The notes under the pieces are model-generated. The model had not been told where the DNA came from. It did no database searches and saw only the letters and a list, made by a program, of their open reading frames with translations. Positions 1-64,000 of a stretch of DNA of 64,000 bases are shown here, piece after piece. The stretch is taken from assembly GCA_000442015.1 (NCBI GenBank), contig KE561154.1, forward strand, positions 62,001 to 126,000, given 5' to 3'. This stretch comes from Rozella allomycis CSF55 (lineage: Eukaryota; Rozellomycota). Every line of letters starts with the position of its first letter. Position 1 is the first letter of the stretch. Both the position numbers and the translations under genes were made by a program.

Positions 1-3000
1 TTTGAGGGATTCATATTCACTACGAATCGCATCACATTCAATAAGAATTGTTTCATTCTCGTTGCGTAGAGATTGGTTTTCATCTTTAAGAGATGTAACT
101 TCAACATTGAGATATTCATTTGAATTGTGTAGCGCTTCATTCTCATCTTTAAGAGAGTCATTTTCACGTTTAAGATATTCATTCTCACTTTTAAGGGATT
201 CATTTTTAACTTTGAGATTTTCATTCTCATCTCTAAGAGAATCATAATCATCTTTAAGGGATTCATAGTCACTGTCAAGTTGATCATATTTAGATTTATA
301 TTCTTCAATTGTATTTTCATAAACATTTTTTTCTTTATCAAATTTCTCTTTAATATTTTCATTATTTTCTAATTCAGATTGTAGATGATTATTTTCAGTC
401 TTCAAAAGATTAATTAAACCTTCAAATTCATCAATTTTAATTTTTAAATCTTCAACGTAGAAAGAATTTAAAGAAGCTTCTTGAATTTTCTCATTAATTT
501 TTTCAATTTGGAAATTTAGAGAATCTAAATCACAATCTGGGTTTATTTCTTTTAATAGATTTGAAAGTGAATCTAGAATTAATTCATCTTTAATAAATTT
601 ATTTATTTTATTTTTTATTTCTTCTTGATTCTCTTCCTTTTCTTTTAATTCATTCTTCAAATTCAATTCATTTTCTTTTAGTAAATCTATTTCATCTTTT
701 AATGAATTTATTTCAACTTTAAAGAATTCTATTTCATCTTGCAATCCTTTTAATTCATTCAATTCAATCATTGTTTTATCAAACCTATCAGCCAATTCAA
801 TCAATTCTGCTTTGTTAGTGTTTAATTCTGAATCTTTAGCATTCAACTCTACATCTTTATCTTTCAACTCACTTTCTTTAGCGTTTAACTCACTTTCTTT
901 AACATGTAGTTTCGATTCTAATTCATTAATAATTTCTTCTTTAATCTTTAATGATTCATTTAAAGCTTCATTAGCTCTTTCATGTTTAACTAACTCTTTA
1001 CTTAAATTATCAATACTCGTTTCTTTAATTTGAATTTTAGCTTTAATTTCAACCAATTCTTCATTCAAAATAAAAATTTGTTTTTCATTCTCATTAATTT
1101 CTTCTCGCAAACTTTTTCTCAAATTCTTTATTTCTTCTTTCAATTCCAAATTTTCTGCATTCATCTCATCAATAACTTGATCCTTGTATTTTATTGTTTC
1201 AAGATTAGAGATATCTTCTTTCAACTTGTCATTCATTTCTTCAATTGTTGAAACTTCATTTAGAAGAGAAGAAACTTTTTCTTTCAAAGTTGAAACTTCA
1301 ATTCTTAATTTATTGTTAGATTCTTCTTTATCTCTTAACTTACTCGCAAGGTCTTCATTGGTCAACTTAGTTGATTCTATTTCTTTTATTAATTCTTCAC
1401 TTTTAACTTTTTCATTATTTAATTCATTCTTCAATTCTGAAATCATTTCATTCTTTCTATTCAATTCTTCTTCATTCATTTTATCAGATTTAATCAACTC
1501 TGTAACCCTTTCTCTCTCCTTTTCAATTAATTCATTCAACTCTTTATTCTTTGCTATTTCAACGTTAATTGCTTCATTCAATTCAGCAATAGTAGCTTCA
1601 TGTAACTTCATAGCTTCTTCATTCTCCTCTCTCTCTACTCTAATCATTTCGTTCAATCTATTATTTTCTAAATTGATTTGGTTCAACTGTTGGAGAAATT
1701 CTTCAGCTCTTAATTTCTCTTTTTCAAGACATTCATCAAGCTCCACAATCTTCATTTGTTGTTCTTTATAACTCCCTTCCATGTTTGATTGATCAGATTT
1801 GATTAATTCACTCAATTCTTTATTCTTTCTCTGTTCTTCTTTAATCCTTTCATTCAATTGTTCATTCTTCAATCTCCCTTCTTCCACAAGCTGTTCAATG
1901 TTTATCTTTTCAGTTCTAACCTTTTCAATCAATTCTTCATTCTTTAATTTCATTTCTTCTAATAAATTTTCATTCTTTAATCTCTCCTCTTCCACTATCT
2001 GTCTCTGTTCTTTTACAATTTGTTCAATCTTGCTTTGTTCTTCCTGCAGCAATCCATTCAACTGTTCATTCTTCACTTTCTCTTCTTCCATTAGCCTTTC
2101 AATGCTTATCTTTTCAGTTTTAATCTTTTTAATCAATTCTTCACTCCCTATTTTCTCAGATTTCATCTTTTCCTCCAACTCTGCATTTCTCAACCTTTCG
2201 TCTTCAACTTTTGCCTTTTCTTGCTCAATCATATTCTGTAATTCTTCTACTTTGGTCTTCAATTCATCAACTTTTGCATTCTCAAGTTTAATCATTTTAT
2301 CGAATTCTTCAATCTTCTTCTTCTCTTCTGATCTTTCTTTATTGTTTTTCATATATTTCTCAACCAGATCTTTAATCTGATCATTCAACTCTTCAATGCC
2401 TTTCTCCTTTTTCTTCAATTCACTCTTTAGCTCTTCATTTTCTTTCTTCATCATGTTGTAATCTTCTTCAACCAAAGACAATCTTTTAGCTTCAATTTTT
2501 AATTCTCCAATTTCATCCTCTTTAGTTGATTCTCTAGTTTCACTCTCTTTTTTCAATTCACTAGTTGCATCTTGTTTGTTAAATTCACTATTATCATCCT
2601 CATTGGTTGGTGATTTTTCAGGGGAGCCATTCCTCGAAAGGTATATTTCTTCAAATGGATCAACCTTGGTCGGTGATACTATCCTCTCTTCATTCTTTTC
2701 AATATTAATAGTAGCCACATCCATCTATACATACCACAGCATTATCATACCACATCATTTGCAGACACAGTTTTCACCGGCGACACACTTCTAACCGGCG
2801 ACGAAGCCATACTCTTCACAGGCGATCCACTCCCTACACTCTCACCTCTATCACTCTTCTCTCCACCTCTATCACTCTTCTCTCCACCCACCAAACGCCC
2901 TACCTCCACACTCTCCCCTCCCTTGCCATTCAAAACACTCTTCCTCTCGCCCCTCTCCTCCTCCTTTTCGCTCGATATCCGTCTAGCTATGCCAAGCGGA

Positions 3001-3168
3001 AGCCCCATATTCTTCAGCAACTGCGAATCAGACGCATAGCTCTTCACTATATCACTCCCACTAATCCAGCTTACATGTTGCATGCACATCCACCAACTTG
3101 TCTGGGAGCGTCTCGGTCACTTTCTTGCGCTTGTACTTTTCTAAACGTGCCCGTCCGGCGGCCTCCAT
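1..3168 (-). CDS. Large coiled-coil protein, 3'-partial
   Basis: This is a long coiled-coil protein that runs off the left edge; at least 1,038 residues are visible. Coding exons are 3168-3075, 3046-2751 and 2724-1, separated by introns of 28 and 26 nt that restore one frame. The first ~130 residues are charged and Ser/Pro-rich with short SPVK/SPVR-like motifs. From about residue 190 the chain is almost pure heptads, and near the window edge it becomes regular 7-residue units of the pattern N-E-x-L-K-x-E, seen in the DNA as a 21-nt period. The lack of any stop over 908 codons on this strand supports coding. The architecture suits a golgin, a centrosomal scaffold or a cytoskeletal filament protein, but no family-defining domain is visible, so no function is assigned. 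Open frames on the opposite strand here are mirror images of the heptads. Confidence 0.85.
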
Positions 3169-3527
3169 CAGGTTACGAAATTTGGAGATTGGTGATGAGG
3201 TTTTTAATTGGGATTTAAAAATTATTTAAAGATGGATTATGAGTAAAAAATGGATAGTTGTAAATTTTAATTTAATAAATTTAAGTGTGTCACTTTATCA
3301 TTATATTTTTTGGTGGGAATGTTTGATCTCATGAAATATTAATACAAATATTTTAACTCTACATTAATTAATTAAATATTTAAATATTTCAACTCCTCTA
3401 TTGTCATATCGCGCCTAAACTCTGATTTCACGAATTTCTGAAACTATTTCTTATTTTCCAGATTTTTTTTCAACCCCTGCAAACTTTTAAGAATCGTACC
3501 AACACAGTATGTTTATAATTCTAGAAA
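3169..3527. promoter_or_regulatory. Divergent intergenic region, coiled-coil gene and uS8
   Basis: About 360 bp separate two divergently read start codons, so the stretch must carry both promoters. It is very AT-rich with poly-T/poly-A tracts. I see no RNA gene, repeat or conserved element that I can name. Confidence 0.4.
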
Positions 3528-3949
3528 ATGGTCCGCATCTCTGTGTTGAACGACACCCTTAAAAGCATCAACAACGCTGAACGCCGTGGAAAGCGCCAAG
3601 TCCTCGTCCGTCCATCCTCCAAGGTCGTTGTCAAATTCTTGTCTGTCATGCAAAAGCACGGTAAATACATCTTTTATGTTTTATAATAGGATATATTGAC
3701 GAATTCGAAATCGTCGACGACCACCGTTCAGGAAAGATTGTCATCCAACTCAACGGACGCTTGAACAAGTGCGGTGTTATTTCTCCTCGCTTTCCTATCA
3801 AGGTTACCGAAGTCGAAAAGTGGGTCAACAAACTCCTTCCATCTCGTCAGTTCGGTTTCATGGTCTTTACTACCTCCCTTGGAATCATGGATCATGAAGA
3901 AGCTCGTCGTCGCCATACCGGAGGTCGCATTCTCGGATACTTTTATTAA
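3528..3949 (+). CDS. RPS22: Cytosolic 40S ribosomal protein uS8 (S15a/RPS22)
   Basis: Cytosolic small-subunit protein uS8, 130 residues, the usual eukaryotic length. Exons 3528-3660 and 3690-3949 flank a 29-nt intron; splicing joins the family-typical MQKHG to YIDEFEI. The C-terminal signature GGRILGYFY is intact. Start: the ATG opens directly on the conserved [13 protein letters not shown]. It is read away from the coiled-coil gene and toward MSH1, whose stop lies 29 bp past this one. AATAAA begins on the last base of the stop codon (3949-3954), so the 3'UTR is probably very short. Identification is secure. Confidence 0.98.
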
Positions 3950-3978
3950 ATAAAACATTTTATTGATCATGCAATTAA

Positions 3979-6728
3979 TTATTTATTGGTTAAGGAGTTT
4001 TTCAGCTCTTCTAAAAGGCAAAGTGCCTTGACTCCGTTGAGTGTGTTTAAATCTATCTTTTTTATTCGCTCTATTGTTTCATTAGAAAGTTCATTAACAG
4101 TTTTTGAGTCACAAGGATGGGATGTGACTGATTTGTTAAGATATTCTCGTGCAAGCGATGTTACAGACTTTGGTAAACCAGCGAGTTCAGCAATATCAAT
4201 GCCATGAGAATGATCAGCAACACCGGGTGAAAGTTTATGAATGAACATTAATGAGCCATTTTCATCTCGCGCTGCTTCAGTTTTCAAAAAGTTTACAGTT
4301 GTATCATGTTTCAATTCATCCGCCAACTCATGATAATGTGTGGCGAATAACGTCATTGATTCATTTCTATGAGCTAAATGCTGACAAACAGCATATGCTA
4401 TTGCCAACCCTTCTCGCGCGGATGTGCCCCGGCCCACTTCGTCTAGAAGGACCTTTCATATTTGATATAAAATATTACCAGAGACTTTGAAGTTGCACGT
4501 TTCAAAATTTCTTCAGTTTCTTTCATTTCTACCATAAATGTTGATTCATTTTTAGTCAGATCGTCGTTCGCTCCAATCTATGGTTCAAAATCGCAATTAC
4601 TTTTACTCTTGTAAAAACGGCATCTCTAAGTCCTATTTTGGCTTGTTTTGCTGGTATGTAGCATCCTGTTTGTGCAAGAATAACGATTAACGCAACCTGC
4701 CGTAAAAATGTGCTCTTACCGCCCATGTTAGGACTTTTACAACGTGAAATAAGATTTACCCGGTAATTAAGGAAAATCTCTTCTTTGAATCAAGTAAACA
4801 GTCGTTTGGTACAAATGTTCTTTGCGAATTCAATTGAATGGATTCCACCATTAAATGTCGCCCGACACTTATATCTATTTCATTCCTTTTAAACAATTTA
4901 AATTTTATTACTTTTTAGTTAAGATAGGTTTTGATAAATTCCTTTCAATGGCTACGATAGCATTGCTTAGGGCAACATCCAGTTCCGATAACGCTGTCGC
5001 TGCTACATCAATTTGAGGAACTTTTTTCCTTAAAATTTCTTGTATATCTTCAAATATTTGAACTTCTAATTCAACCATTTGACTGAATAAGATATCAATG
5101 TCTTGTTTTTGCTTGTCCAAAGCCTTTTCAGAATGAAATAAAGGAGTTACTTTCAACGAATATTGAAATTCACCATTAGTTAGCCTAGCTTCCATTAAAA
5201 AGTGGGGATGTCTAATTTCCTTCTTGGATGCAACAATCCATTTCCTTGACTTCCTTCTAACACAAAGTTGTGATACATCAATTTTCAACTCTTTTACGTA
5301 CTTTTCTAGAAAATCTTTGCTATCTTCATCACTATTATTGTCCAGCTTAATCCTTATCGCGTCGATCTTACGACAATAGCCATCCTTTACAAAATACCCA
5401 TCAGAAACACAAGATTTATATTGCTTGTCATTTAAGCTTTTTTCAAGAATATTTAATAATTCATTGTCATAATTTATTTGTTTAAACAACGTTTCTAGCT
5501 TCTCAGGGACTTTAGATAAAGATATAAATTTCTCCTTTAGTTCTTTAATGACTTTTAAAGAGTTTAAGATTCTGATGAATTTTTGTGGTATTCCGGTCTT
5601 TGAAGGTCTTGATGCAAGAATGTCCCTTGAAATTCTCTCAATGTCATTAATATTTTTCAAATCAATTCTTAAAAGATCAGTTATATGAGGATTGTTTACA
5701 AAATAATCAACAAGTTTAAGCCTATCATTGATGACCTTCATATCTGTTGAAGGCGAATTGAGCCGACTGAACAACAATCGTTTACCCCCTGCTGTGCATG
5801 TTCTGTCTATTATTTTAAACAGTGAGTTTTTCTTGCTATTCAAAGATTCCATTAAGTTTAAACTTTTCACAGTTTGCGGAGTAAGGTGCATTTTATCAAG
5901 CTTGGAATATCTTTTGGGTTCTTGAAAAGAAACTATGGCATCAGACTGCACTTTTTCCAGATAAGAATAAAAATACGACACTGCATTACTTTCTGCGTTT
6001 TTGTTATAGTTTTTTATGTGGGGATCAAGTTCATGCAGGTGGATGTATGCGTTACCATCTACATCCATTTTACCTATAACGCCCAAAACTATTCTCTTAA
6101 TCTCCTCATTCTGGCAAATTATTTCTTTTGGCTTAATTTCATTAAGCAATTGAAACAATCCTTCATCATCACTTAACTTGCAAATATCCGTATACATAGT
6201 TCCAGTACTAACGTCTCCCCAACACAAACCAATAGAATCATTGCATTCCTCATCCAAAACAATCGACATTAAATAAGAAGGCCTCCCTTCGTCCAACAAA
6301 TCTTCGTCAAAAATTGTACCCGGAGTAAACACCTTTGTCAATTTTCTTTCAAACTTTGTCGAATTCGAAATCTTAAACTGGTCATAAACAGCAATATTGT
6401 AATTCTTTTCCACCAATATCTTTATGTACTTCATTAAACTAGTGACAGGAAATCCCGTAACTTTTCGTTCGTTGACAGGCGGCGCAATATTTATCAGTTC
6501 AGAAAGGAGATGCCCATTCTCGCCATAGCATTCGTAAAAGTCGCCAACCTGCACAAGAACAATATAGCCTGGATGCAACTTTAGCTTTTCGAAAAAGAAT
6601 CTGTGCATGCCGGTTGCATCTTTTGATATATGTCTTGCCATGAAAGTGTACGTTTTGGCATTGAAAAGTGACAAACCATGAAAAAACATAGGTGGCTTGT
6701 GGAAAGATTGAAATTTATTTATTGACAT
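3979..6728 (-). CDS. MSH1: MutS homologue, mitochondrial MSH1 type
   Basis: DNA mismatch-recognition ATPase, 880 residues from five exons (6728-4912, 4885-4760, 4733-4607, 4577-4479, 4452-3979); the introns are 26, 26, 29 and 26 nt. The N-terminal mismatch-binding domain has the F-x-E element as DFYECYG. Domains II-IV follow, then the ATPase with Walker [10 protein letters not shown] (residue 648 onward), the signature block ending STFMVEMKE, Walker [12 protein letters not shown] (724 onward) and ATHYHEL. Full domain I plus a basic, hydroxylated leader before it suits the mitochondrial MSH1 branch. MSH1 is inferred from the leader and domain set; another MutS branch is possible. The ATG used touches the stop of the upstream gene, and a downstream ATG (MFFHG or MARHIS) could be the real start. 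Confidence 0.93.
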
Positions 6729-12075: not shown

Positions 12076-13001
<926 letters not shown>

Positions 13002-37532: not shown

Positions 37533-38200
37533 CTGTTGTCAAGCGCACTTGTGATGCGTAGCAAGGTATAGCAACTTAAAGTTTTAGGCGAAATGANCCA
37601 AGATTGAATAATATTATTTTTATTTAGTATTGGCATAAGAAATATTAGACTATTTTAACTCAAAATACTTTGGTACAACCCATAAGGCACCTCAATGTTT
37701 GTCATGGAAGTATAAGAACGATGTCGGTGTTTAGTNATTTGTGATGCAATTGAAACAATTTTTTCTTTTTTTAAAATATATCAACTTTAATAAGGGAAGT
37801 CAACTTTTGCAAGTTGAACAATATTGAATTTCTAGTTCTAAATTCGCAATGTGTAAAGGGAAGCGGCGATTGGCTTAATATGGTACCAGTTAGTGGCCTT
37901 GGTTTGATAATGGACTCAAGATCTTACCGAGCGCTTTTATGGCGTAGNNNNNNNNNNNNNNNNNNNNNNNNNNNNNNNNNNNNCACCTGTTTATTCATTT
38001 GAGAGACTTTAATCTTGAAAGACCTTGGCGGGGCGGGGCGCTTTGATATCTAGCGAGTAAAGGTTAGTATCCCAATCTGTATCATGCATGGACTCAACTT
38101 GGGATAAGGATTGATTGGACTTGCTTGAAATTATCACACCTGTATTTAATTTCAATCTTGAAAAGGTTATTTAAAACAAACTATTAAATAATCCAATATA
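37533..38200. other. Assembly gap region
   Basis: Contains N's at 37597 and 37736 and a run of about 36 N's at 37948-37983. 37648-37710 repeats sequence found at 37087-37158. No gene supported. Confidence 0.7.
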
Positions 38201-41200
38201 TTAATGATGATTTATTAAATAACGGTGTAAATGCTTGCCACTCTGAACAGCCTTGACAATGACAGTTTCATAAAGATTCACTGGTATGGCATCACGATCT
38301 ATTCCCAGCCACCCCAGTAATTTTTCAAATCTCGGTGTAGCATCGCCCATAAACTTTAGTTGTGGTTCCAAAATCATTTGCGAAGAAGGCTGAAATTTTC
38401 TGTCGCTTCTAGTTGTTGTTGTATTTGAAGTTAATAGATTGAGAGTCTCCTGCAGAAACTTGTACAAGCCGAGGTTTAATGATGCGTCGATTGGATGATC
38501 AAATTCTGAGATTAATTGATAGTAATGAATGTTGTTTATTTCTTCGACTTCCATGTAGAGAGTGCATTGTGGTATTGTAACTATATTCTTTTTAGATGAA
38601 TCGTTGAGGAAATTGATTAGTTGAAGACAAGATTTGTAATTTTTTAATGAAACATCTTTTGATTGTTTTTGAATTGAAAATGCTTCGAATTGAATGACTA
38701 GTTCTTCAAGCTTTGAATGGTTAACGTTTATTAGAATTTCTTTGGTTGACGCAGAAACAAAATCAATTTCTGAAAATGAATTTTTGTAAAGCAGAAAGTT
38801 TATTTCATTTCCTCTCACTAAAAACTTAAACGGAAGATCTAAAATGTTAGATTCAACCTTCAAATCCTCTTTTTCATTTAGAGAAATTAATTGAAAAATC
38901 TTTTCTTTAATTTTCATCAACTGATTTTGACTTTCTTTATGCATCGCCAAATAAAATTTGTTAAAATAAAAATCAATCGAAAATTCCAAATTTTTTTCTT
39001 TTAAAACAAAAATAGATCTATCTAGATAAAACATTAAAAATTTTTCAAAATCATATCCACAGAATACATCAATTAAATCAAAACTTGCAAAATAACCCAA
39101 ATTTCTTCCAATGAATAGATCCAACAATGAAAAATTAATATTCAATCTTCCTTTATTTTCTAAATTTATTGAATTTGAATTAAAATAAAACGAATTTGGA
39201 TTTTTTCTAATAATAGATTTCTGAATTTCCAAAATAGATGATCCGAGAGTCTGGGAAGCATCAATATTTATTTTTATGTTTTGAATTGCCCCACTAAAAT
39301 ATTTATCAATCTTTTGAACGACATCCTGATCAATGTCATCCTGATCAACAACATTATTATCATCATTATCTTTGTTGATGTTCCATGCTTTAATAAATGA
39401 AATCAGATCATTAATATTTCTCAACACTACAAACACATTTAACTGATCTGAATAGAAGATTATTGATTGTTTAGAAATAAAAGGAATATTTGACGAATTC
39501 ACTGAACAAGATTGAAATGACAAACTAAAGCTATCAGTCTTTGAATGAATATGTTTAAACGACAAACTCATCAAAGGAAAACTCAAATTAACTAAATTAT
39601 GAACATTATTGTCTTCAACCAATGCAGCAGACTCACACTTTATTAAATCCCCTTTAACATTCATCTCAAAGTAATCAAAACTCTTCAATATCAAGTCAAA
39701 TTCTTTTATTTCAACTTTAAATTCTCTTAAAGCCCCTCCACTTTCCATTGAATTCATCAAGACCAAAACATCAGGCATCAACGTTCCTTGCACTTTACCC
39801 ACTCTCAATTCCTTCATATCAACAAGACAAAAATCAATTATTTCCACATTATTCAATTTATTAAAAGAAAAAGAAAAGAAATCAAAACAAAATTCAAGAT
39901 TTGGTGGCTTGGCTACCATAGGAATAGATGAAGATGGCGTTTCAAACGGAAGACTAAACCCCACCAACGCTTTATAATGCTTGAAATTCAAATTCAAACC
40001 ACCATTCCTAAATCTACATCTTCCATTCTCATACAACAACCCATCCACCTTAAACACAACATCCATTCCATCCAACAATGTAACATTACCAATACCAGCT
40101 CTAAAACTCTCAGAACTAACCAAACAATCTCTAATCTCCAAAAACCAAGTATCATCAATCGTCAGCTTAAACTCATCCACAATCACCTTGAAACTAACCA
40201 TCGACTTTGACGATCTCATTCTCTCCCTAATAATCACCACTTGCCTATTCAAAGTAACCGCCTGTCTATTATTAATCTTCTTTATCCACTCCTTAAAAAA
40301 CTGCAGCAGGGACCCAAGACACTGAAAACTAGTCACAGTCATTATCTTGCTAATCTTGAAATCATAGCAGCTTAGATAATCCACCAACTGCCATTCGAAA
40401 TTAAATGAGAATAAAGTCAACTCTGCTACTTTGAAAATGGCGCCAGATTGAACACCTGTTAATGACCAGGGTAATGAATGGCGTTTGGAGCCAATTATTT
40501 GGCCGGTTTCTATTGAGAANTGGAGCCCATTATTTGGCCGGTTTCTATTGAGAATATTTTGTTATTTGTTTTAAATGAAATTGTTGAACCCAAACTGGCT
40601 ACTTTGATATTCATTAATGATGGGGAATTGGTGGTCATCTTAACATTTAGCAGCTCGTTGAAAGCAACTTCGTAATAGAATAGAATTGTGTCAAGGGATT
40701 CTATAGTGTATTCCACTTGATCAACTATAATTGAATACCATTCATTATTCGCTCTTAATAGAAATCTTGGAAGTTGCATTGAGGATTGCTCTGTCACATA
40801 CTTTGTTTTTATAATTGTTTCAGGCCAAAAGATTGAATATTTACCATCCACTACAACAACTCTAATGAATGAAGTTTCTGACTGTACATGCATTGATTTC
40901 AATGGTTCAAATTCCAATTTCAAACAACCAAGACATACACTTCCCTTATTAAACAAGGATTTACTTTGATTTGATTCTCCATTGCTTAATAAACTAGAAA
41001 ATTCATGATAAAGAATACTCGCTCTTTCTAAACAAAGAGTACAAGCCAAACACTCAATAAACAATGTAAAATATAAACTCTCAATAGTTTTTGAAATAAC
41101 ATTTGAAACATTAAACGCTATCCCATTAAACTTGCATTCTAGGATTGTTTCTTCATTTCTGAAAATTCTGAAATCCAAAAATGGTAAATAGAGCAAATTA

Positions 41201-44200
41201 CTCTTGTCAAGAATAGCTCTTTGTTTTCTTTTAATAGAAGATATATCATCATTGTGGGGTAAATCACTTGGAGATACTGATAGAAACGAATAGATCATTG
41301 ATTGTGTGTTGAGATTGACTGTATAGTTGAAATAGTGAAATTGACAGTTTATGTTATGGATTAGCATATTGTAGATTCCTTTAAACTTTATTATGGAATC
41401 ATCTACTTGTTTATTATCTTTATTAAGATTGAAGAATATATTGAGAAGATTGTGATGTAAATTGATGTCGATGTAATCAATAGAAGAAATGATGTTTGAA
41501 TCTTTTGAATCATCGTTTAAAGAGAGATAACCCTTTGAACACAGATTTTGAATACTTAAAAGATTATCCATCCAATTCAAAGAAACATTTATTTTAGATT
41601 TCAAATCTCCACAAACTTTGAATATTTTCTCATTCATAAACAAAAAAATTGGCATATTTTGAATCAACGTTGATGACCAATTAGAAAATAATTTATTAAT
41701 CTCATTCAATGAAATATTTGAATTTAGAGAATTATCAAAACAGAAATCAGATGACATTAAATGTTCTAATCTTGATAAAAGTTTGTATTGATCAGAAATA
41801 ATCAAAGGATTTTGAATTAATCTTCTTATATTGGATGGCTTGGTAATGAAAACTGGCTCAGTTAAAACTTTTAATGAATATTCAGCCAATTGATAGATTA
41901 AATTGTTTGTATCATTTGAACTAAAGTTGGGTAATTTTATTAGATTAATAAAGTCTATAAATTCAAAATCTTTTTGTATTTTGCAATCCAAATTGAAATT
42001 CAATTCTATTTCTTGTGAATCATGATACTCGATAAAGAAATTTGTTAATGTTGAATCTCCCCAGACATTTAAATTGAAATCTAATAATTTACATTCCATT
42101 AAAAGATTATGAAAACTAAATTCATTCAGATTGTTTAAAATCTCACAATAATTTATTTGAATATTCTTTGAAAATATTTCTAAAATTCCCTTTTCATTCA
42201 TATATTGGATTATTGTAGATTGATTTCTAACAATGCATCTACTAGATTTAATACAAGACAAGAGATTCATGTGAATTTGATCCATCATTGATCTCACATC
42301 TCTCTTCCTAGTCAAAGAGTTAATATCTTTGATTAAAGCATCAGAAATGAAGATGTTTAAAGTAGAATTAATTTCAATCAAAGTTTCCAATTGATCAGAC
42401 CCTGGTAATTCAATTTGGTAAATTTCAGATTCACTTTTATTAATTGTAAATATTTTTCTTTGATTATTAATTACAAACTTTTCATTTATCTTTTTGAATG
42501 TATTCAAGTAACGTGAATAAGTTAATTTGTTTTTATTATTCGCACAAGATTGTTTTTGAGGAAACTTTGGTGAATGTAAACTAGAAAGTGATTTAAATGA
42601 TATTTCATCAAACGAAGTAGAATCTGATTTCAGCCCTTCTACATTCATCTTTGATTCAATATCTATTTTAGATTCAATGTTCAATTTGGACTCTCGTTGA
42701 GTTGACTTGTTTCTTTCTTTACTTTCACTTTCAAATATATCATAGAATCCATGAAATGCTAAAAATTCTCTCTGTTGTTTCTCAATTTCAATCTTTTCTC
42801 TCTCAACAATTCTCACTTGATCTACCTTGACTCCGCCACATTCTAAAAATAGTTCATCATCTNTAGCCCTTCTACATTCATTTTTGATTCAATATCTATT
42901 TTAGGGCCAATGTTCAATTTGGACTCTCGTTGAGATTGTCTATTTAACTTGTTTCTTTCTTTACTTTCACTTTCAAATATATCATAGAATCCATGAAATG
43001 CTAAAAATTCTCTCTGTTGTTTCTCAATTTCAATCTTTTCTCTCTCAACAATTCTCACTTGATCTACCTTGACTCCGCCACATTCTAAAAATAGTTCATC
43101 ATCTTGTATGACAAAAGATAGGGATAAATCATCAAAAGAATAAACAGATTCAATATAATTATTCTTTGATACTGAACTTGAATAATATTTAACATTTGAA
43201 GCTATAATTATTACATCATCAAACATTGCATTGATAGAATTTAGAGTAAATGACATTATAAAGGCTTCAATTGAGTGCATTGATTTAAGTTTGATAGAAT
43301 CTTCTAATCCATAATAATGATACATGGAAGTCTTATAAGCATCATACAGCAATATAGAATCATTAATCTTTCCACTTAAACAGCCAAACGTTCCAGTAAT
43401 GTTTGCATAAAATAAATTAAATGGTGAAACTCCATAATAATTTTGTTGAGTTATTTCAATACCTATTTAAGAGATTTGAATCTATTACATTCTAATGAAA
43501 GACTAGCATTTGAATCATCATTAGTGGATATCTTTATTTTATCAGTTTGAAAAACCAAATCTTTTATTAAATTTAATTAATATTTACTCTTTTTTGAATT
43601 GAAACTTTCCAAATTAATTGACCCCTGTTCAAGAATTACATAAACGCCACTTTCAAATGAAAACAATCTACTTGGAATAAAAACATTTGAATTTTCTATC
43701 AAAAGATTCAATTCATATTCAAATAGATTCACATTCTTAAATCTAACAATCCAATCCTTTTCCCTCTCATCCCCCTGCCGGTATTCATCAATTGTAATAA
43801 AGGATTGTTGAACCCCACTAAAATTTTCAATCAGCTGGAATATTATTCTTACAGCAAAGCCCGACAGTNATCAGCTGGAATAAAACTTTAACAGCAAACC
43901 CCGACAGTTTAAATTTACCATTTTTAAGCTTTTAAAATTCATTGAATAATTTACTAAAATATTAAAAGCCATTTTATCCACATTTGAATCACAGATATCA
44001 TAATAATATTCATAATTGAAATCTATTTTAATCATCGACGCTTGAAGAAGATTAAATTTGGTTTGGTTTGCAAAACATGCGACGGTATGTGACTGTGGCA
44101 AAGACAATTCAATAAATGGTTTAAATATCTTCAAAACCTCAATAATCAATCTTTACTTGAATATCAAATGGAATGAATGACTTTTCTTGTTCAAATTCAT

Positions 44201-46027
44201 CAAACTCCAATTGACACTTAAAATGACTCTTTGGCGAGTATATTGTTATTAAAGCTATATCAATACACTAATAAATTTACTATTTTCATTTTTGTCACAC
44301 GGCTGTTGAATTATATTCAATTCATTACAATGAAACACAACATTCGACTCTGTAAGATTCACATTAACGAAATAAACAAACGGTACAAATTCATTCAAAC
44401 GAATCTTTGGCTTTTGTGAAAAATCATTTGAAATATCATTAAACTGGAAAACATGCTCTTTCAACAAAAATACACTAGCTTTATGGCCACTAATCGTAAT
44501 CTCCCATTTAGCCTGGTCTCTCCATTTCAAGGGATAAACAGTCAAAATATGAAATCTAAGATGTTCTGCATTCAAAAATTGTGAATAATTAACACTCGTT
44601 TTAATAACAGCTTCCTTGAACGTAATTTCATATTCTGTCCGTGTTCCAGTCTCACTGTATACCATGGGAACATTAACATTAATAATCACACCATGCGATT
44701 CAACATCAACCCACCCATAAGCTCTCTTCATTGCATTTTCATTGTTGAACCGATAGTCCTTGGATGCCTCTCTATGCGGAATGCGCCAATTTGTTTTCCC
44801 AGTGAATTGAACAAAAACTTTAAATTTGGTATATTTTCTCATCTGTCCAATTATAAACTGATCATCTGCCTTCATGTCATGGAAATGGAACGGGTAGAAA
44901 TATTTCATAAACAAATCTCTTTGTCTGTCTGCCCAGGGTCCATATTTTATTACAGAATTGTGAAATATCAAATCTAGTCCCCATTGCGGCGGCAATTCTT
45001 CATCCTGCCCTGATGATGGATGGATCCCTTTTATTTCATTAATAATCAAATTTACCTGCTTGGTCTACATAGTAATTCATTTTCAGTGAATCTGACTGCA
45101 AAATCTCAATCACCTTGGCATACTCCCCATCATCAATTTCAACCATCTCTCTCATCCCAATCGTTTCAACTGCAGTCTTCCTCTTAAATATCCTCCTCCA
45201 ATTAAATCCTCCACGCAGTCCCCCACCTTCCATCTCCTCAACCTGCACTCTATTATAATCAATATTCGTCCTCTGCCGAATTTTCAAAACACTAACCACC
45301 AAAATCAACACACTCTTGGCAACATCCTGGCTGCTTCTCGACGGCATCGCGCCATAAACTCCACTCGCTTTTTGAAACTCGGCAACAAATATAGTAGGAA
45401 TGTTTTTATTGCCAATCAGTAATGCACTCTTGCCAAGGTCCAGAAACATGGGCACATGGTTGATCCATTCACGTGATAAATTGATCGAGGGCAATTCAAA
45501 AGGGTACTGTGCGGGATCTTTCAAATGGTTGATCCAATAATACGCGGCTGTATTGTTATATAGAAATACTTCGATTCCCGAAGCGCATATTGCTAGTCGG
45601 CATCTTTTGCCATTTTCATCTCTCTATTTCAAAATGCGATTTTACCATAGTCGTTTTCATTCAAATTAACCTCAATCCCCCTTCTAGTCTCAGATATCCA
45701 GTATCTTCTAACACTAACCAATCCAACATACCTAATAGTAATGCTGCCCTCGGCTATCGACACCATCATATTCTCGCTAATGTATTTCACATTCTTAAAC
45801 AGCAATTGACCTCCCAGCAAGGAAAACTTTATCGACTCTTATCATTATCAATTAAACTGTTTACCGACATCTACATACACATTGCACTTTCTAGTTAGGT
45901 ATATCCGGGCAATGTAGAAAATGATTTGGGCTAGGATTCGGTTGGTGTAAAATACATAGAATGCAATGACTGTGATCACGACTAGAGAATACACCAAAAA
46001 TACGCCGAATTCTTCGATGCCTACCAT
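38201..46027 (-). CDS. CSF1: Giant bridge-like lipid-transfer protein, CSF1/BLTP1 family
   Basis: A repeating-beta-groove protein of about 2,400 residues that shuttles lipids between the ER and other membranes. Exons 46027-45865, 45837-45646, 45619-45056, 45027-44281, 44254-44157 and 44128-43588, then one long exon 43560-38201; introns are 26-28 nt. Residues ~12-35 form the N-terminal ER anchor, followed by the family strand pattern VESIKFSLLGGQLLFKNVKYI and the landmark KYGPWADRQRDLFMKYFYP. The C-terminus has GDATPRFEKLLGWLGI...IPVNLYETV, as in Csf1/KIAA1109. N's at 40520, 42863 and 43868 carry duplicated flanks, and single A's seem missing near 43465 and 43930, so the exact length is uncertain. 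Confidence 0.93.
42632..43104. repeat. Unmerged overlapping contig ends inside CSF1
   Basis: 42632-42862 and 42864-43104 encode the same ~75 residues on either side of an N, with several substitutions and a ~10-bp length difference. This looks like two allelic or near-identical contig ends placed end to end, not a protein repeat. Confidence 0.85.
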
Positions 46028-47461: not shown

Positions 47462-49420
47462 TTAATCCACTTCTTCAATATGGGGCCCTTCCTTGCTAGT
47501 AGATTCACCTTGGCCTGATGCTCCCGAAGTTTCATGAAGTTTTGTCATGATAGGATTTGCAACATTTTCCAATTCTTTCAATTTTGCTTCAAATTCATTT
47601 TTTGACGCATTTGGGTTTTCATCAACCCATTTCAAAGCACTTTCAATGGCTTTATTCAAAGTCACAGAGTCGTTGGATGAAATCCTGTCCTTCAATTTTG
47701 GGTCATTCAAAGAATTTCTCAAAGAATAAGAATAACTTTCCAGACTATTCTTTGCTTGAACGGTCGCTGCAATCTCCTCATCTTCTTGCTTAAATTTTTC
47801 AGCTTCTGAAACCATTCTTTCAATATCATCTTTAGAAAGACGTCCTTTATCATTGGTAATTGTTATTTTATTCGTTTTTCCGGTTGTCTTGTCCATCGCA
47901 GAAACATTCAGAATACCATTGGCATCGACATCAAAAGACACTTCAATTTGAGGAATTCCTCTTGGTGCCGGAGGTATACCAGAGAGTTCAAATTTTCCTA
48001 AAAGATTGTTATCTTGGGTTCTTGTTCTTTCTCCTTCATAAACTTGAATCAAAACGCCTGGCTGATTGTCAGAGTAAGTTGAAAATATTTCACTCTTTTT
48101 GGTGGGAACAGTTGTATTTCTTTTGATTAATGGAGTAAAAATACCACCAGCAGTTTCAATTCCTAAGGATAGTGGTGTGACGTCAAGTAACAACAAGGAC
48201 TGTGTCTTTTCCGAGGAAACTCCTGCCAGAATTGCTGCTTGAACTGCTGCACCATATGCGACCTAATTTAAATATACATTATTAGTTACAGCTTCATCTG
48301 GGTTAATAGATTTACAAGGCTCCTTTCCATTAAAATAATCGGACACTAGTTTCTGAATTTTAGGGATTCTTGTTGAACCTCCGACTAAAACAATCTCATC
48401 AATTTTATATTTATCAACTTTAGAATCTCTCAAAACCTTTTCCAATGGTTCAATGGTATGACGAAACAAATCAGCGCAAAGCTCCTCAAATTTAGCCCTA
48501 GTGATTGAAGTATAAAAATCGATCCCTTCATATAATGAATCAATCTCCATAGTTGTCTGTGTAGCTGAAGAAAGCGTCCTCTTTGCTCTTTCACATGCAG
48601 TTCTCAATCTTCTCAATGCTCGAGGATTAGATGAAATATCCTTCTTGTGTTTCTTAAGGAACTCTTGTGCAAAATATGTAACGAGCCTATTATCAAAATC
48701 TTCTCCTCCCAAATGTGTGTCACCAGCAGTCGCCTTGACCTCAAAAATCCCTTCTTCAATCATCAAGAGTGAAACATCGAATGTTCCTCCACCGAGGTCA
48801 AATATTATTATGTGGTTCTCTCCTTTCAACTTCTTATCAAGACCATACGCAATAGCAGCTGCAGTCGGCTCATTGATAATTCTCAAAACGTTCAGTCCCG
48901 CTATAGTACCTGCATCTTTCGTCGCTTGTCTCTGAGAATCATTAAAGTACGCAGGAACTGTTACAACTGCGTCCCTAACATCTGTACCCAAAAATGCCGA
49001 AGCCGTATCTTTCATCTTGGTTAATATCATGGCCGATATTTCTTCGGGGGAAAACGTTTTTGTCTCGCCCTTGAACTGAACTTGCACTAGGGGCTTTCCT
49101 CCAGAGTTCACAACTTTAAATGGCCTTTGACATAAAATGTATATATTTTACCAGTGTTTCATGTCAGATTGTACTTCCTCGTCATTGTATTTTCTACCAA
49201 TTAGCCTTTTCGCATCGAAAATAGTGTTCATAGGATTAACAGCTACCTGATTCTTCGCAGCATCTCCGATTAGCCGTTCATTTTCTGTGAACCCGACGTA
49301 TGATGGCGTTGTTCTGTTTCCTTGGTCATTTGCTATTATCTCCACTCTATCATGTTGCCAAACACCTACGCATGAGTAAGTTGTACCAAGATCTATTCCA
49401 ATCGCAATGTTCTGAACCAT
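47462..49420 (-). CDS. Cytosolic Hsp70 chaperone (SSA type)
   Basis: A 634-residue Hsp70 from exons 49420-49152, 49124-48290 and 48262-47462 (two 27-nt introns). It opens [17 protein letters not shown], has [12 protein letters not shown] and [11 protein letters not shown], an interdomain [11 protein letters not shown], and ends with the cytosolic EEVD motif that binds TPR co-chaperones. The BAG1-type nucleotide-exchange partner is also in this window (54057). The gene is full length and intact. I looked for heat-shock elements upstream and found no convincing run of nGAAn units. Confidence 0.98.
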
Positions 49421-52361: not shown

Positions 52362-53986
52362 TTAACATTGCTGCCTGTTCTTCTTTGGTTGTAATGCTGT
52401 TATTATCGATAGTGTGGTACTCAAGATCATCGTAACAATTCCAAACACTAAAACAGCTAATGGAAGGATATTTTTGTATGAGAAGACGCGATCTTTTTTC
52501 AGTTTAATAACACATAAAGGAGGTAGAATAAATGCTAACAATACCGCCGAAAATCCACCCTGCTAATATTACCAATACCTAACATACTGTTAATTCCAGC
52601 ACGATACCAAGATCGCATGTCAGTTTCGACACTAGAAAGGAAGTCAAAACGAGTAAAAACGTTATTAGCAAATGTCTTATTCGATTAAAGGGTCTATCGC
52701 TGAAAAGAAAGTTTTCAATGACTTCTCTTGCGACCAAACATTCCATGGGAAATGTGAGAAGTATGTTAAACGCAAATAGTAATCGTGCGATGTTTATAGA
52801 CAACAAATCAAAAGAAAAATTATTAAGGATGTTCCCTATTGCAATTTAAAGTGTGAATTTACCTTTTGTGCTATCAGTGAAGGCTAAATAAGTCGGAATG
52901 GCCATTAGCAATGACATTAACAATGAAAATCCTGTGCTATAGTGAGTAACTTTTTCAAATCGATCCAAAGTTGGTGTTCTTAATGAACCATATATTATGA
53001 ACGTATTATGATGACAAACAAATGCTAAACATTCATATTAAGATCTAGAATTTACCAAAGCTGATAACGCCAATAGCCTAATGAATTATATTTTGCAGAT
53101 TTACCTGAAAAAAGTTTGGTTTGATAAATGCGAATTTATCGTCAGAGGCAGGCAAACTATTTTTCCTGACTTCTATAATCGTCGTTAAAACTAATGCGGC
53201 TATCGCCACCAATGAAATAAATGAGGTTTTTGCTAAATGAGTCTTCTTTTGTTAAGAAATGTGTTCTTACCATTGACTTGACCGAACTAAGTGGCAAACA
53301 AATAAGAAATGTACAAATTGTTAAAATCGTGAGTCTCGAAACACCATTCGAGTAATGCGCAATAACACTTCCCAGAGTGTCAGCGACTATTACCAAGTAT
53401 GCACACATGCCTATATATCAATGTATCAAATAAATACCACCAAAAGCAAATACAATCTGGAATATTGTAATCATCCAATAACCCGGTTTACCAAGAACAC
53501 TTCTTACTAAATCCTGGTAAGTATTTGTTGATGTTAATTTGCCGCACTTTATTAAATTTATTACAGACCAGTCTTTAAATGCCAANGCCAAGAACACTTC
53601 TTACTAAATCCTGATAAGTATTTGTAGATGTCAATTTGCCGCACTTTATTAAATTTATTACAGACCAGTCTTTAATTGCCAAAAATACATCTTACCGACG
53701 ATCCATGTTATCACCACCAATAAAATAATGCCAAAGAAAAAGCCCGCCTCATTCAAGGCGTAAGGCAATCCCATTATACCTGCCCCAATTATTGAATTGG
53801 TGAAATTGAATATCGAATTGTACAGCGAGCTCTTCTGCTCATTATCTTCCAGCACGAAATTAATCTTTCATAAATCGCTGATTTGGATACCTGATAAGAC
53901 TCTTCACTACTTTCAGCCGGCGAAACAATTAATTTCCCATTTTTCAAGCTGTCATCGGAAACATTGNTATCGCTTTGCCCAGACAT
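52362..53986 (-). CDS. Amino-acid transporter, AVT/SLC38 type
   Basis: A polytopic transporter of about 430 residues with eight coding exons (53986-53696, 53669-53438, 53410-53271, 53242-53105, 53077-53056, 53024-52863, 52835-52588, 52559-52362) and introns of 26-31 nt. TM1 has NSIIGAGIMGLPYALNEAGF, diagnostic for the AAAP family, and FVCHHNTFIIYGSL is the conserved middle segment. The N-terminus is Ser/Glu-rich and cytosolic. An N at 53586 joins two copies of the same ~100 bp, and one A seems missing near 53866, both assembly-type faults. It is likely vacuolar (AVT6/7) or plasma-membrane; direction of transport unknown. Confidence 0.88.
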
Positions 53987-54056
53987 TCAAAAGTCCGCCA
54001 GCACACAATAACAGTATCTGAATTTTCGTTATTTACACGAAAACACATTAATCAAA

Positions 54057-54639: not shown

Positions 54640-54728
54640 ACACCAAATTTATATTAATAATAAAAGGCAATACATAGTGTTATTATTATAAAATTACAAC
54701 ATTTAATAACCTCATTCAATTCTGTTTA

Positions 54729-58729: not shown

Positions 58730-58873
58730 NTATGTTTTCCAAGATTGATCTTTAAAAGGGGTTCTAAGTGATCTATCTTTAAATGTTCTGCATATGCCTC
58801 AGTAAGAAAATCGAAGTAGGTTGAATTTGATTTATTCTCATCTTAGGATTGGATTGTTTCTTGAAGGTTTGGT

Positions 58874-59062: not shown

Positions 59063-59266
59063 TTATTGTCTCCATGGCAAATAGTTATCTCTTCAGTTAT
59101 TCTTCTTCTTGGCGTAGTAGTTGATNCCAATATGTAAATTATCAAAAATGAAATTTCGACATGTTCGATGACCGTAACAGTCGCTCCATACGCTTATAGT
59201 ATAGTTAAAACAGAAGTCGAATGAGAACGGATTGTCTCAGATCTTGGAATTTATAGGTAATCGGGA

Positions 59267-59490
59267 TGCTGTCTACAGAATAGTGCAGCCCAGTATCATA
59301 CGGAATGATTACTCAGTTATTAATTATATGGGTAATGGGTGTTCACTGTTCATGATATAATATTGCAGCCAAGCATCACGCGGAATGATAACTTGATTAC
59401 TATATTTTAGGGATTATAATAATGTGTAAGCGCTATTGTGACTCGTGATGCATAATTGATTATTATCTGCGTAATAATGTGAAGTGCTAT
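59267..59490 (+). repeat. Dispersed repeat, tandem imperfect units
   Basis: Two units of about 80-90 bp, each starting near GCAGCC[CA]AG[TC]ATCA followed by CGGAATGAT and an AT-rich tail. The same motif occurs inverted near 26530-26575 and in parts of 34811-34980. All copies lie in gene-free, N-containing stretches. Confidence 0.6.
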
Positions 59491-59565
59491 CCTTACAACA
59501 ATTCGAAACATTATTTAAATCGGCGATGAAATAATATACAATGAAATTTATACTCTGTAGATATA

Positions 59566-61260: not shown

Positions 61261-61571
61261 GTCTTTATCTTGGTTTCGAGAATCGTTGGCTTCATCTGGA
61301 GAATTGCAAATGCCATCCCCAAAAAGGAACTTTTGTATTGCAACAAGCCACTTATAAACCTTTCTAACGATATAAAACACTCAATACTTCTTCTTTGTTT
61401 AAGTTTAGGTGTGATATATAGGTGTAAAAGTTTATTCCTCTCAAGTTATTCAAGTTCTCAAATATATGTGATATTTGTTTTTCATCCACTTGAAAACATT
61501 CTTATTTTCACTTGAAAACTTTTCCTTACCTAAAAAATTTTGTTTTGCAAGCTTTAGCTGCTCGACTTCAG

Positions 61572-63148
61572 ATGTTTCCATTTTGGTCCTATTTGTGAAT
61601 TTTCGTGAAAGTTTGGAAAGAGAAAACATTTATGAAACATGGATACCAATATATGACAACATGATGAGAAAGAACACTCCTATAGTTGTACAAAAATTTA
61701 AAAGACCGGGAACTAATTTTGGAATTCCAAAACCGAGATTTGTTCATTTACCGCCAATTAATGAAAAGTCTCGTGAAAATGACGCAAATAAAAAAGATAT
61801 TGAAATCGTGAAAGATTTGATTGATTGTCTTGATTTTTCCTCGGAAACAGTAATATTTAAAGTTCGGCGAAACCAAGATTATGATTGCGTTTGGAGAATC
61901 ATTGCAGAGAAGGATTCCAAAAGTCTGGGAAGAAATGTCATCGACAATATCACACATGCTAATTTCATCTCGTAATACCATTAATGTAAGAATTACTAGG
62001 CGATTTTATAGAAAAGGGACAAGTTATTTGTTTTCCCGCCATCACGGAAGAAATAGGCAAGCAAATATTAACATATATGAGTAAAACTGCAAGGAAGGAG
62101 ACTTATATTATAAAAAATACTGAGACCGTTGTTGGCATTTTGTTGGCATCGGATTATTTGGGAATGCATGTACTAAAACAACAATGTGTCAAATTTATAG
62201 CCAAAAACATTTATTGTAAGCGCCAACTCATATTCTAATAGAGGTATTAGTAACATGTGTCAGTTGCCTCCACCTTTTCTTGCAGAAATAGCTAAAGAAA
62301 CGAATATCCCCGCGTTGTTTTATTTGGAAACCGTATTAAAACAAAAAATTACACCAAATCTTTGGAAAAAAAAGTTTGATGTTATCTATACCATAGTTGA
62401 GCCATTCAACCTTTCATTTAAAGAAAATAGCTCATTCATGGAAAAGTCATTATGGTCATTCTATTATCTTTGGGAAAGAAATGAAACCATTCAAAATGGA
62501 ACACCTTTTTCTATTGTGAAAAGAATTGCCGAAGAATGTACTTATTATGAGTTTGACCATTGGATAAATAACATGCAAGCAGCTAGCGTAATTTCCACGA
62601 ATCACTGCGGAAAGATTTTCATCTATTCTTCGTTAATCCGCTACTTGCCTATGTCCAATAAACAATGTATTATTGTGTTAGAAAGCGAGAATAGTGCAGA
62701 TTATCTAAAAAATCAATTATCTTTAAGTCCAAATTTTAAGAATCTTGTACATGGAATTGCACTGATAGCAAATGTGACTATGAAAGTTGACATTTTAAAG
62801 TATTTGCTCAGGGTTAACATCGTGGAACTTTATTTTCTGGGCCCTGAATATGATGAATCATATATGGAACATTTGTTGAATTCGACTGTGAACTTGGAAA
62901 CATTGGTCATTAAATATGGCAGTAGTAGAGTACCTACTATAGTCGCCAGTGTGCTTCATAGAAGCGTAAATTTGAGATATCTAGAATTACAAAACATTGA
63001 ATTCACTGTAAACTCTGGATTACTTTTGGTTTCAAAACTCGGTGAGTTAAGAAACTTGAAGAGACTGGTGTTGAAGAATTGTTCATTTCCTCAAACTATT
63101 GAAAACATGTTGCATAAATTTATTGAAAGCAGAGATGAACTTCAATAA
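61572..63148 (+). CDS. BTB/SKP1-like plus leucine-rich protein, unresolved middle junction
   Basis: Exon 1 (61572-61585) and exon 2 (from 61612) are joined by a 26-nt intron. A middle exon ends at 62215, a 28-nt intron follows, and exon 62244-63148 closes the gene. The middle segment EKGQVICFPAITEEIGKQIL...GILLASDYLGMHVLKQQCVKFIAKN fits the end of a BTB/SKP1-like fold. The last 300 residues contain irregular leucine-rich units (LRYLELQNIEF, LKRLVLKNCSF). The junction between exon 2 (open to 61975) and the BTB segment (about 62005) does not keep frame with any GT-AG intron, so one base is wrong or an exon is missed. BTB-LRR proteins often recruit CUL3; here that is inference. Confidence 0.6.
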
Positions 63149-63740
63149 AATACTAGTCTTTTTTTTTTCAGTATATATCAGCTAAGTCGCAGAAAATATA
63201 CCAGACGTGGCAACACTAACAAACATTTAAGGGAAAATCCTAATGTTTTCCATCATACAATGCCATCAAACCGCCTACCATTACTTCGGTCCAACAAATT
63301 CGCCAAAGAACTTTTGCAGATCACGGCCGATGCATATTTTCATCCTTTTTGATCTCACCCACAACATTCCGGCATAATTCCCCCTCAATTGCTCATGTCC
63401 CCAAAACTACGGTCGGGATAAGGCACTTCATAAAACTTCATATGAAGTCATGGAGAATCTAATGCAGTACTCTTAGTTGAAATCGATTTTTTCGATTTTA
63501 CCTAAACTAGGAAATTTGCACTGAATTTGATTAGAAATATCGAAAAAAAGTCGCCACCCTGGTTTGAATAAAGCTATCGCAGATAAATTCGCGCAATGTA
63601 GAAAAATATTACCTATTCAGTCGTTTANGAAAAACATTACTTATTCAGTCGTATAAAAGGTGTAACGGTTTACCTTTTACAAACGAGACGAAGCACTTCG
63701 CTTTGCGTACTGCGATTTGAAATAGCATAGCCAAGAATTT
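63149..63740. other. Intergenic, downstream of the BTB-LRR gene
   Basis: Roughly 590 bp, more GC-balanced in the middle (63240-63440) than average, with an N at 63628 whose flanks repeat about 25 bp (TTACCTATTCAGTCGT). I tested it by eye for tRNA, 5S and U6 patterns and found none. Confidence 0.3.
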
Positions 63741-64000
63741 CGTGAGCTAGATAAAAAATTAAAGGTAACTTGCTAAGTGCTAACAAAAACTCTTTCAGGC
63801 CTACCTCAAAAATAGAGTCCGTAAGAGTTCACGGAAGATTGCAAATCAGACTTCCGAGTCAATTGGGGCTACGGAGGATGCTATTGCTGATGTTAGAACA
63901 GTCGTTGATAAAGACGTTTTTGATTCTAGGGAAGCTGCTGAGATAGATAATAGAATTGACCTAGAATCAAAAACGTCTTTATCAACGACTGTTCTAACAT
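63732..64000 (+). CDS. Partial gene at right edge, unidentified
   Basis: Two exons, about 63732-63764 and 63799-64000, can be joined across a 34-nt intron to give EFRELDKKLKAYLKNRVRKSS...SIGATEDAIADVRTVVDKDV, a charged helical segment that stays open to the window edge. No start codon is seen in the upstream exon, so more exons lie further left or the start is spliced. The right-hand half of this exon is also the right arm of a perfect palindrome, which makes its last ~40 bases doubtful as coding sequence. Confidence 0.4.
63890..64000. repeat. Perfect 41-bp inverted repeat at window end
   Basis: 63890-63930 (ATGTTAGAACAGTCGTTGAT...) is exactly complementary to 63960-64000, with a 29-nt spacer. 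The right arm ends at the window edge and may extend past it. A perfect long hairpin like this is usually a foldback assembly or library artefact, or the tip of an inverted-repeat element. Confidence 0.8.

Follow-up and report, generated by a model that had tools for sequence, protein, structure and literature searches.

Within a 64,000-nucleotide (nt) stretch of the genome of Rozella allomycis CSF55 (contig KE561154.1, positions 62,001 to 126,000; termed the window below, meaning the whole stretch that was analyzed), most predicted introns are 26 to 32 nt long, and their length distribution breaks off sharply at 26 nt. Ultra-short introns with this floor are real as a predicted class. For the 26- to 32-nt introns, the 3ʹ end is probably chosen by its distance from the 5ʹ splice site: AG dinucleotides less than 26 nt from that site would be ignored, those at approximately 26 to 33 nt would be used, and those beyond approximately 36 nt would be out of reach.

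The sample comprised 304 kilobases (kb) from four contigs, approximately 3% of the assembly: the window together with C191:1-100000, C132:100001-200000, and C158:100001-140000. Unless stated otherwise, counts refer to this sample. Introns were predicted with a codon-level Viterbi gene finder, which demands only a GT donor and an AG acceptor and accepts any length within set bounds, and which therefore cannot favor 26 nt. The flat run used GT...AG only, with neither splice-site matrices nor length preference, and introns of 6 to 80 nt were counted. The strict run combined splice-site matrices with a flat length prior and an intron penalty of −11, its counts over the full sample taking in introns of 6 to 150 nt; in the looser run, the penalty was −9.

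The flat run returned 379 introns, of which 247 were 26 to 32 nt long, the rest being divided into 25 of 6 to 15 nt, 20 of 16 to 25 nt, and 87 of 33 to 80 nt. Nucleotide by nucleotide, its counts at 24, 25, 26, 27, 28, 29, 30, 31, and 32 nt were 1, 2, 59, 61, 59, 36, 13, 15, and 4, respectively. With matrices, 362 of 469 introns fell at 26 to 32 nt, a narrow distribution below approximately 35 nt as in lineages with uniform ultra-short introns, and 1 intron of 25 nt stood against 97 of 26 nt. An earlier note on the window had set the floor at 26 nt, and both runs confirm it (2 against 59 and 1 against 97 introns across the edge). The floor is present in each of the four sampled contigs; counts fall abruptly on the lower side and tail off across several nucleotides on the upper one. 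Calls longer than 32 nt make up 79 of the 469 in the strict run. In the flat run, longer calls carry weaker splice sites, and some calls of 33 to 36 nt look genuine.

In the window itself (positions 1 to 64000; guanine plus cytosine content 33.8%), the strict run placed 107 introns in 34 gene models, with 85 at 26 to 32 nt, including 25 of exactly 26 nt; there were none of 20 to 25 nt, 4 shorter than 20 nt, 5 of 33 to 60 nt, and 13 longer than 60 nt. The looser run gave 149 introns, 94 of them 26 to 32 nt and 3 of 25 nt. Under either setting, the ultra-short class is thus slightly smaller than the earlier figure of more than 100 introns. The splice-site ends had been described accurately: among 187 introns of a first flat run over 264 kb, the donor was GTAA in 135 and GTAT in 35, and the acceptor was TAG in 111 and AAG in 56.

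An artifact of gene finding or assembly, with sequencing errors, frameshifts, or chance pairs of GT and AG posing as introns, is hardly credible. The assembly does offer some grounds for the suspicion, as the window contains 27 single-N positions that look like assembly joints (for example, 40520 and 53586), and 22 of the 79 strict-run introns longer than 32 nt span an N. At 2 of the 27 positions, the flanks of the N share at least 14 identical bases (43 nt at 53586 and 26 nt at 40520); some joins therefore duplicate sequence and can yield false long introns or repeated protein segments. However, an N occurs in 0 of the 362 strict-run introns of 26 to 32 nt. When GT and AG were replaced by 11 control dinucleotide pairs, each pair gave 19 to 47 calls at 26 to 32 nt and no peak; only GT...AG peaks at these lengths, and GC..AG, AT..AC, and nine further pairs do not. 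The raw spacing of GTA[AT]...[AT]AG on both strands, taken without any gene model, peaks at 26, 27, and 28 nt (z = 4.9, 3.9, and 6.0, respectively). Among the listed lengths of 12 to 60 nt, the runner-up in raw spacing is 52 nt (z approximately 2.8); the controls include one motif with z = 2.9 at 23 nt.

The protein products argue against an artifact as well. Spliced proteins were aligned to solved structures, and six of eight gave usable alignments, in which 14 junctions are free of indels. The uS8 ribosomal protein gene (3528-3949) has a 29-nt intron at 3661..3689 on the plus strand, and all 130 residues of the spliced protein align gap-free to solved uS8. Four junctions belong to the MutS/MSH1-like gene on the minus strand (3979-6728). 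Its 26-nt intron 1 (4886..4911) has an ungapped junction with the closest gap approximately 15 residues off; 26-nt intron 2 (4734..4759) falls at the Walker A motif, ungapped between SLIT and GPNMGGKS; 29-nt intron 3 (4578..4606) is ungapped between VFTR and IGAND; and the junction of 26-nt intron 4 (4453..4478) lies within an ungapped stretch of the MutS alignment. The thymidylate synthase gene (12076-13001) contributes one 26-nt intron (12584..12609, plus strand), also ungapped against the solved enzyme.

The gene for radial spoke protein 3 (RSP3), a flagellar gene present in the window (13144-14300, plus strand), contains five introns placed by alignment to RSPH3B: 27 nt at 13296..13322, 28 nt at 13393..13420, 26 nt at 13545..13570, 31 nt at 13855..13885, and 28 nt at 13970..13997. 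Residues 37-329 of the spliced protein (293 aligned) match solved RSPH3B with zero gaps. A 28-nt intron in the glutathione-peroxidase-like gene (21051-21603; intron at 21307..21334, plus strand) lies within a gap-free part of the alignment, where the best PDB match was a designed protein with this fold. In the cytosolic HSP70 gene (47462-49420, minus strand), both 27-nt introns (intron 1 at 49125..49151 and intron 2 at 48263..48289) have ungapped junctions against the solved heat shock-related 70 kDa protein 2. The two remaining proteins, with seven introns between them, gave no usable junction alignment: that of the mitochondrial carrier ran in shifted repeat registers, and the aldo-keto reductase was without a match among solved structures at the 1e-70 limit.

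Two tests independent of the length histogram indicate that the floor may have a function. In the looser run, an additional AG is found exactly 3 nt downstream of 7 of 9 candidate introns of 24 to 25 nt but of only 7 of 390 introns of 26 to 32 nt (Fisher p = 4e-10), the latter consisting of 2 of 286 at 26 to 28 nt and 5 of 104 at 29 to 32 nt. Taking the downstream AG, these short candidates would therefore become 27 or 28 nt long, and the earlier observation that apparent introns of 22 to 25 nt turn into introns of 26 to 28 nt holds for those of 24 and 25 nt. An AG 3 nt upstream of the acceptor, and hence at 23 to 25 nt from the donor, is present in 11 of the 286 introns of 26 to 28 nt. An amino-acid transporter gene on the minus strand contains two apparent 25-nt introns of this kind. 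The first, called by the finder at 25 nt, has the tandem acceptor AAGAAG (53243..53270 in its 28-nt reading), and the second has TAGCAG (52560..52587, likewise as 28 nt). The protein scores 220.8 bits against Pfam Aa_trans with both sites taken as 28 nt and 207.0 bits with both taken as 25 nt; by this profile, the two predicted introns read better at the longer length.

Avoidance of AG downstream of the donor was expressed as observed over expected exonic AGs, binned by distance from the donor. At 27 to 29 nt, 1 AG was observed where 18.0 were expected (0.06). The ratio then climbs through 6/38.2 at 30 to 31 nt (0.16), 23/45.4 at 32 to 33 nt (0.51), and 35/46.7 at 34 to 35 nt (0.75) to 71/70.1 at 36 to 38 nt, and stays at approximately 1.0 from 36 nt onward. 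Over the same five bins, the GA control gave 26/21.7, 39/46.1, 49/54.8, 50/56.4, and 76/84.6 (1.20, 0.85, 0.89, 0.89, and 0.90), and the AC control gave 15/12.8, 24/27.2, 32/32.3, 29/33.3, and 52/49.9 (1.17, 0.88, 0.99, 0.87, and 1.04). Moreover, a frame-based finder cannot select against out-of-frame AGs, and frame therefore does not bias their count; at 28 to 31 nt they number 6 against 39.3 expected (P = 5e-11), and the matrix-free run gives 5 against 25.5 (P = 9e-7). Following introns of exactly 26 nt, there are 0 AGs at 28 to 31 nt where 25.2 are expected. Inside introns, AGs at 24 to 25 nt show no depletion (26, with 19.2 expected). The asymmetry of the tandem AGs and an AG avoidance that starts near 26 nt suggest that the floor is functional rather than statistical. 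Because the avoidance fades by approximately 36 nt, the pattern is that of a range of allowed lengths, whereas the earlier note, although it gave 26 to 34 nt, concluded on a floor only.

Choice of the acceptor by its distance from the 5ʹ splice site has to be weighed against the way acceptors are selected elsewhere. In other eukaryotes, the first AG past the branch point is usually the one taken. If that rule applied here, with the branch point close to the acceptor, exonic AGs nearby would be avoided whatever their distance from the donor, and the floor would be a by-product of the least spacing from donor to branch plus that from branch to AG. AG avoidance does correlate with offset past the acceptor when offset is modeled alone (log-likelihood −549.8), but distance from the donor fits better (−545.5), and offset adds nothing to it (−545.5 for both together). 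AGs immediately past the acceptor, at offset 2 to 3, number 0 against 12.6 expected in 26-nt introns (n = 96), whereas introns of 30 to 32 nt show 5 against 5.0 (n = 38). The AGs passed over 3 nt upstream of the acceptor in 11 of 286 introns count against such competition as well, and it is distinctly unlikely to account for the pattern. A somewhat better case can be made for an evolved size preference, in which splicing efficiency has tuned length into a cue for recognition, as put forward for nucleomorph and Paramecium introns, and in which shorter introns, once made, would still be spliced. Paramecium bursaria introns of 23 to 26 nt are reported to be spliced best and shorter and longer ones worse, nucleomorph introns of 18 to 20 nt are spliced better than those of 21 to 27 nt, and many lineages settle at different lengths. 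Such a preference would be expected to fade in both directions, whereas the edge in Rozella is one-sided, abrupt below (1 at 25 nt, 97 at 26 nt) and gradual above; this explanation is possible but rather unlikely.

The one-sided abruptness of the floor speaks instead for a physical edge, the cause of which may be steric. A steric limit of the spliceosome near 26 nt had been proposed in the earlier note, and a sharp floor that recurs in four contigs and looks functional agrees with that part of the proposal. As a general limit of the spliceosome, however, 26 nt is excluded because other lineages splice introns of 15 to 25 nt; the floor is a lineage-specific limit. If the acceptor is selected by donor distance, an intron without a fixed branch sequence would be recognized as a single unit spanned between the 5ʹ splice site and the active site. 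The shortest RNA able to run from the U6-bound 5ʹ splice site along the branch helix into the 3ʹ splice-site pocket would then set the floor. The ceiling would reflect how far AG selection can extend from a branch adenosine whose place is set by geometry and not by sequence. The introns themselves were probably shortened by deletion until they reached the floor. A wider version of this idea is quite doubtful: that 26 nt, counted from the 5ʹ splice site, is the true minimum for an unmodified and fully equipped spliceosome, to which the Rozella introns have eroded exactly, and that shorter introns arose in other lineages only where branching factors had been altered, as is apparently the case in Stentor.

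Several observations weigh against selection by donor distance, or against the sharpness of its limits. All introns are predictions of a single, purpose-made finder, and introns divisible by 3 that lack an in-frame stop are missed by it and so under-counted; in the flat core set, every intron of 27 nt (60 of 60) and of 30 nt (13 of 13) contains a stop. Of the 8 looser-run candidates with 20 to 23 nt, 0 have an AG 3 nt downstream, and for these lengths the earlier reading of apparent short introns was not reproduced; they may be finder errors or rare genuine shorter introns. A minus-strand intron with the tandem acceptor AAGCAG in the MscL-like gene (25998..26025), apparently 25 nt or alternatively 28 nt long, scores 107.8 bits against Pfam MscL as 25 nt and 106.3 bits as 28 nt, a difference of 1.5 bits in favor of 25 nt. 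Not all dinucleotide controls are clean: TG gives 10/18.4 at 27 to 29 nt (0.54) and then 1.40, and [AT]GA, over the first four bins (starting at 27 to 29 nt), falls to 2/5.2, 11/23.9, 23/35.4, and 29/38.2 (0.39, 0.46, 0.65, and 0.76), although part of this loss arises because AGA contains AG. Out-of-frame avoidance is weak in the window alone (2 against 8.9, P = 0.007). Past the acceptor of introns of 30 to 32 nt, the series of 5/5.0, then 1/5.0 and 3/5.0, comes from only 38 introns. Inside introns, AGs at 8 to 23 nt number 174 against 251.8 in shuffled sequence (approximately 0.7), so that tolerance is clear only at 24 to 25 nt, and inside longer introns, AGs at 26 to 29 nt are not measurably depleted (4 against 5.7).

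Exonic decoys, that is, GTA[AT]...[AT]AG pairs, point in both directions. On the sense strand, those spaced 29 to 34 nt, a range picked after the data had been seen, number 165 against approximately 250 expected from other lengths, and on the antisense strand 207 against approximately 228. At 26 to 28 nt, the range in which depletion should be greatest under a simple model, sense decoys are hardly fewer than expected (114 against approximately 125), which again tells against the proposed range. Compared with a synonymous-codon shuffle, decoys are low at every length (z = −8.6 at 26 to 34 nt, −4.3 at 26 to 29 nt, and −2.2 to −3.3 outside 26 to 34 nt). Control motifs at 26 to 34 nt are mixed, at 0.82 of expectation for GTA[AT]..[AT]GA, 1.22 for GTA[AT]..[AT]AC, and 1.07 for CTA[AT]..[AT]AG, and depletion is not confined to AT-rich decoys. 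As support for a functional length range, decoy depletion is suggestive only.

The sequence of the introns provides few landmarks apart from their ends. Among 357 introns of 26 to 32 nt starting with GTA, the donor is mostly GTA[AT] and the acceptor mostly [AT]AG, with A favored at positions −4 and −5. The interior is approximately 78% A+T with a T/A ratio of 1.14, and for this reason no polypyrimidine tract is recognized, in keeping with what had been claimed for the window. A branch motif at a fixed distance from the acceptor, which the earlier note had suggested seeking, was not found by k-mer enrichment, by composition from both ends, or by complementarity to U2. This complementarity is at the level of shuffled sequence, with 22 of the 357 introns scoring at least 5 and 23.2 expected. 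TTGA (73 found, 37.7 expected) and TGAA (59 found, 34.7 expected) are enriched inside 26- to 32-nt introns, without a fixed position. They could mark a degenerate branch site, and their enrichment may equally reflect dinucleotide bias because the shuffles preserved mononucleotide composition.

The genome nevertheless carries the expected machinery in the parts that were searched for. U2 small nuclear RNA (snRNA; 139.2 bits, with an intact branch-binding GUAGUA) and U6 snRNA (88.5 bits, with an intact ACAGAGA box) score well over their cut-offs, and a U1 candidate with the 5ʹ end ACUUACCUG scores 69.0 bits, just below its cut-off of 69.5; the pairing regions in U1, U2, and U6 are canonical. By their GT-AG ends and these pairing regions, the segments work like, and are predicted to be, major (U2-type) spliceosomal introns. 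Genes for SF1, Slu7, Aquarius, ISY1, and CWC25 are present, a U2AF65-like gene reaches a per-exon score of 126.7, under the whole-protein cut-off of 310.3, and the LisH domain, sought as a sign of SMU1, gave one match. ISY1 matches its Pfam profile from position 1 (1-253 of 253). In CWC25, Pfam Cir_N matches residues 11-46 (model positions 1-36 of 37), leaving uncovered the first 10 residues, MGGGDLNLKK, a start presumably shared with the human protein. The gene models for these spliceosomal proteins themselves contain introns of 26 to 29 nt (Slu7, 4; Aquarius, 2; U2AF65-like, 3; ISY1, 3; CWC25, 1), beside calls of doubtful length.

Uniform ultra-short introns are an already known kind, described in Stentor, mikrocytids, nucleomorphs, Trichomonas, and Paramecium. 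In Paramecium and Nyctotherus, as in Rozella, nearly all introns are GT-AG and lie in a narrow range near 25 nt, and size has been proposed as a recognition signal (PMC5014332, PMC12862383). For Paramecium, a functional limit for very short introns has also been proposed (PMC5014332). Unlike in Rozella, however, Paramecium lengths are given as 25 to 45 bp in one report and, for P. bursaria, as a median of 24 nt with a minimum of 15 nt in another; the parts of these papers at hand describe no cliff at 26 nt, and the organisms are ciliates and not relatives of fungi (PMC5014332, PMC12862383). Stentor coeruleus resembles Rozella in having uniform tiny introns without a strong branch consensus, and all its snRNAs are present (PMC9505925). 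Its introns differ in being 15 to 16 nt long, and position 10 or 11 nearly always holds the branch A. Additionally, the N-terminus of Stentor ISY1 is reported as non-conserved, whereas Rozella ISY1 fits the Pfam model from its first position, and the N-terminal plug of Stentor CWC25 is distinct (PMC9505925).

Mikrocytids (16 to 17 nt) and chlorarachniophyte nucleomorphs (18 to 21 nt) likewise have introns of very narrow range, in a parasite or a reduced nucleus, although shorter than those of Rozella (PMC10245619). Mikrocytid intron sequences are highly conserved, and 17 to 19 spliceosomal proteins have been identified (PMC10245619), whereas Rozella introns are weakly conserved beyond their ends and the spliceosomal protein families looked for in Rozella were all matched, with U2AF65 below its cut-off. 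The type B introns of Trichomonas vaginalis are also short and near-uniform, at 23 to approximately 25 nt; however, there are 24 in that genome, with a CTAA branch motif adjoining the acceptor and otherwise mainly T (PMC12316389), whereas Rozella has hundreds in 304 kb with no motif found. Among fungi, Cryptococcus neoformans has a mean intron length of 63 nt (PMC8476143); both it and Rozella have intron-bearing genes of the fungal lineage, and the predicted Rozella introns are less than half as long. The same source gives an intron density of 2.53 introns/kb for Rozella (PMC8476143). Among the literature matches listed, judged by title or by the start of the abstract, none addressed intron length in Rozella. 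As far as searched, what is new is a member of the fungal lineage whose predicted introns of this kind number in the hundreds across 304 kb, together with a seemingly intact spliceosome in the parts searched and a measurable range of accepted lengths.

The window has further features of its own. A long reading frame at 1-3168 on the minus strand is coiled-coil-like and rich in Glu and Lys, and GC skew is extreme (−0.354) over the first 4 kb. An intronless frame at 17590-18864 (plus strand) has a hydrophobic N-terminus and a HELMHILGAPHD motif and, with the motif read by eye, resembles a secreted zinc metalloprotease. The MscL-like gene (25870-26411, minus strand; Pfam MscL, 107.8 bits) appears to encode a bacterial-type large-conductance mechanosensitive channel and has two short predicted introns; its tail is short and, read by eye, contains a zinc-ribbon-like CxxC. 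At 38009-46027 (minus strand), a very large multi-exon model of more than 2,400 residues includes a repeated segment, which may stem from the N at 42863.

If true, the finding means that uniform ultra-short introns occur at the root of the fungal lineage, next to the intron-poor Microsporidia, and in a genome where the spliceosomal families sought were matched and ISY1 keeps the N-terminus that is non-conserved in Stentor. Genome annotation that assumes introns of at least 50 nt would get gene models in Rozella wrong, and the errors would carry over into work on the transition between fungi and Microsporidia. The footprint of AG avoidance may show the accepted donor-to-acceptor distances (approximately 26 to 33-35 nt) ahead of experiment, which makes the minimum intron a measurable question, and the floor itself, likely set by the splicing machinery, would be a natural test of the smallest possible intron.

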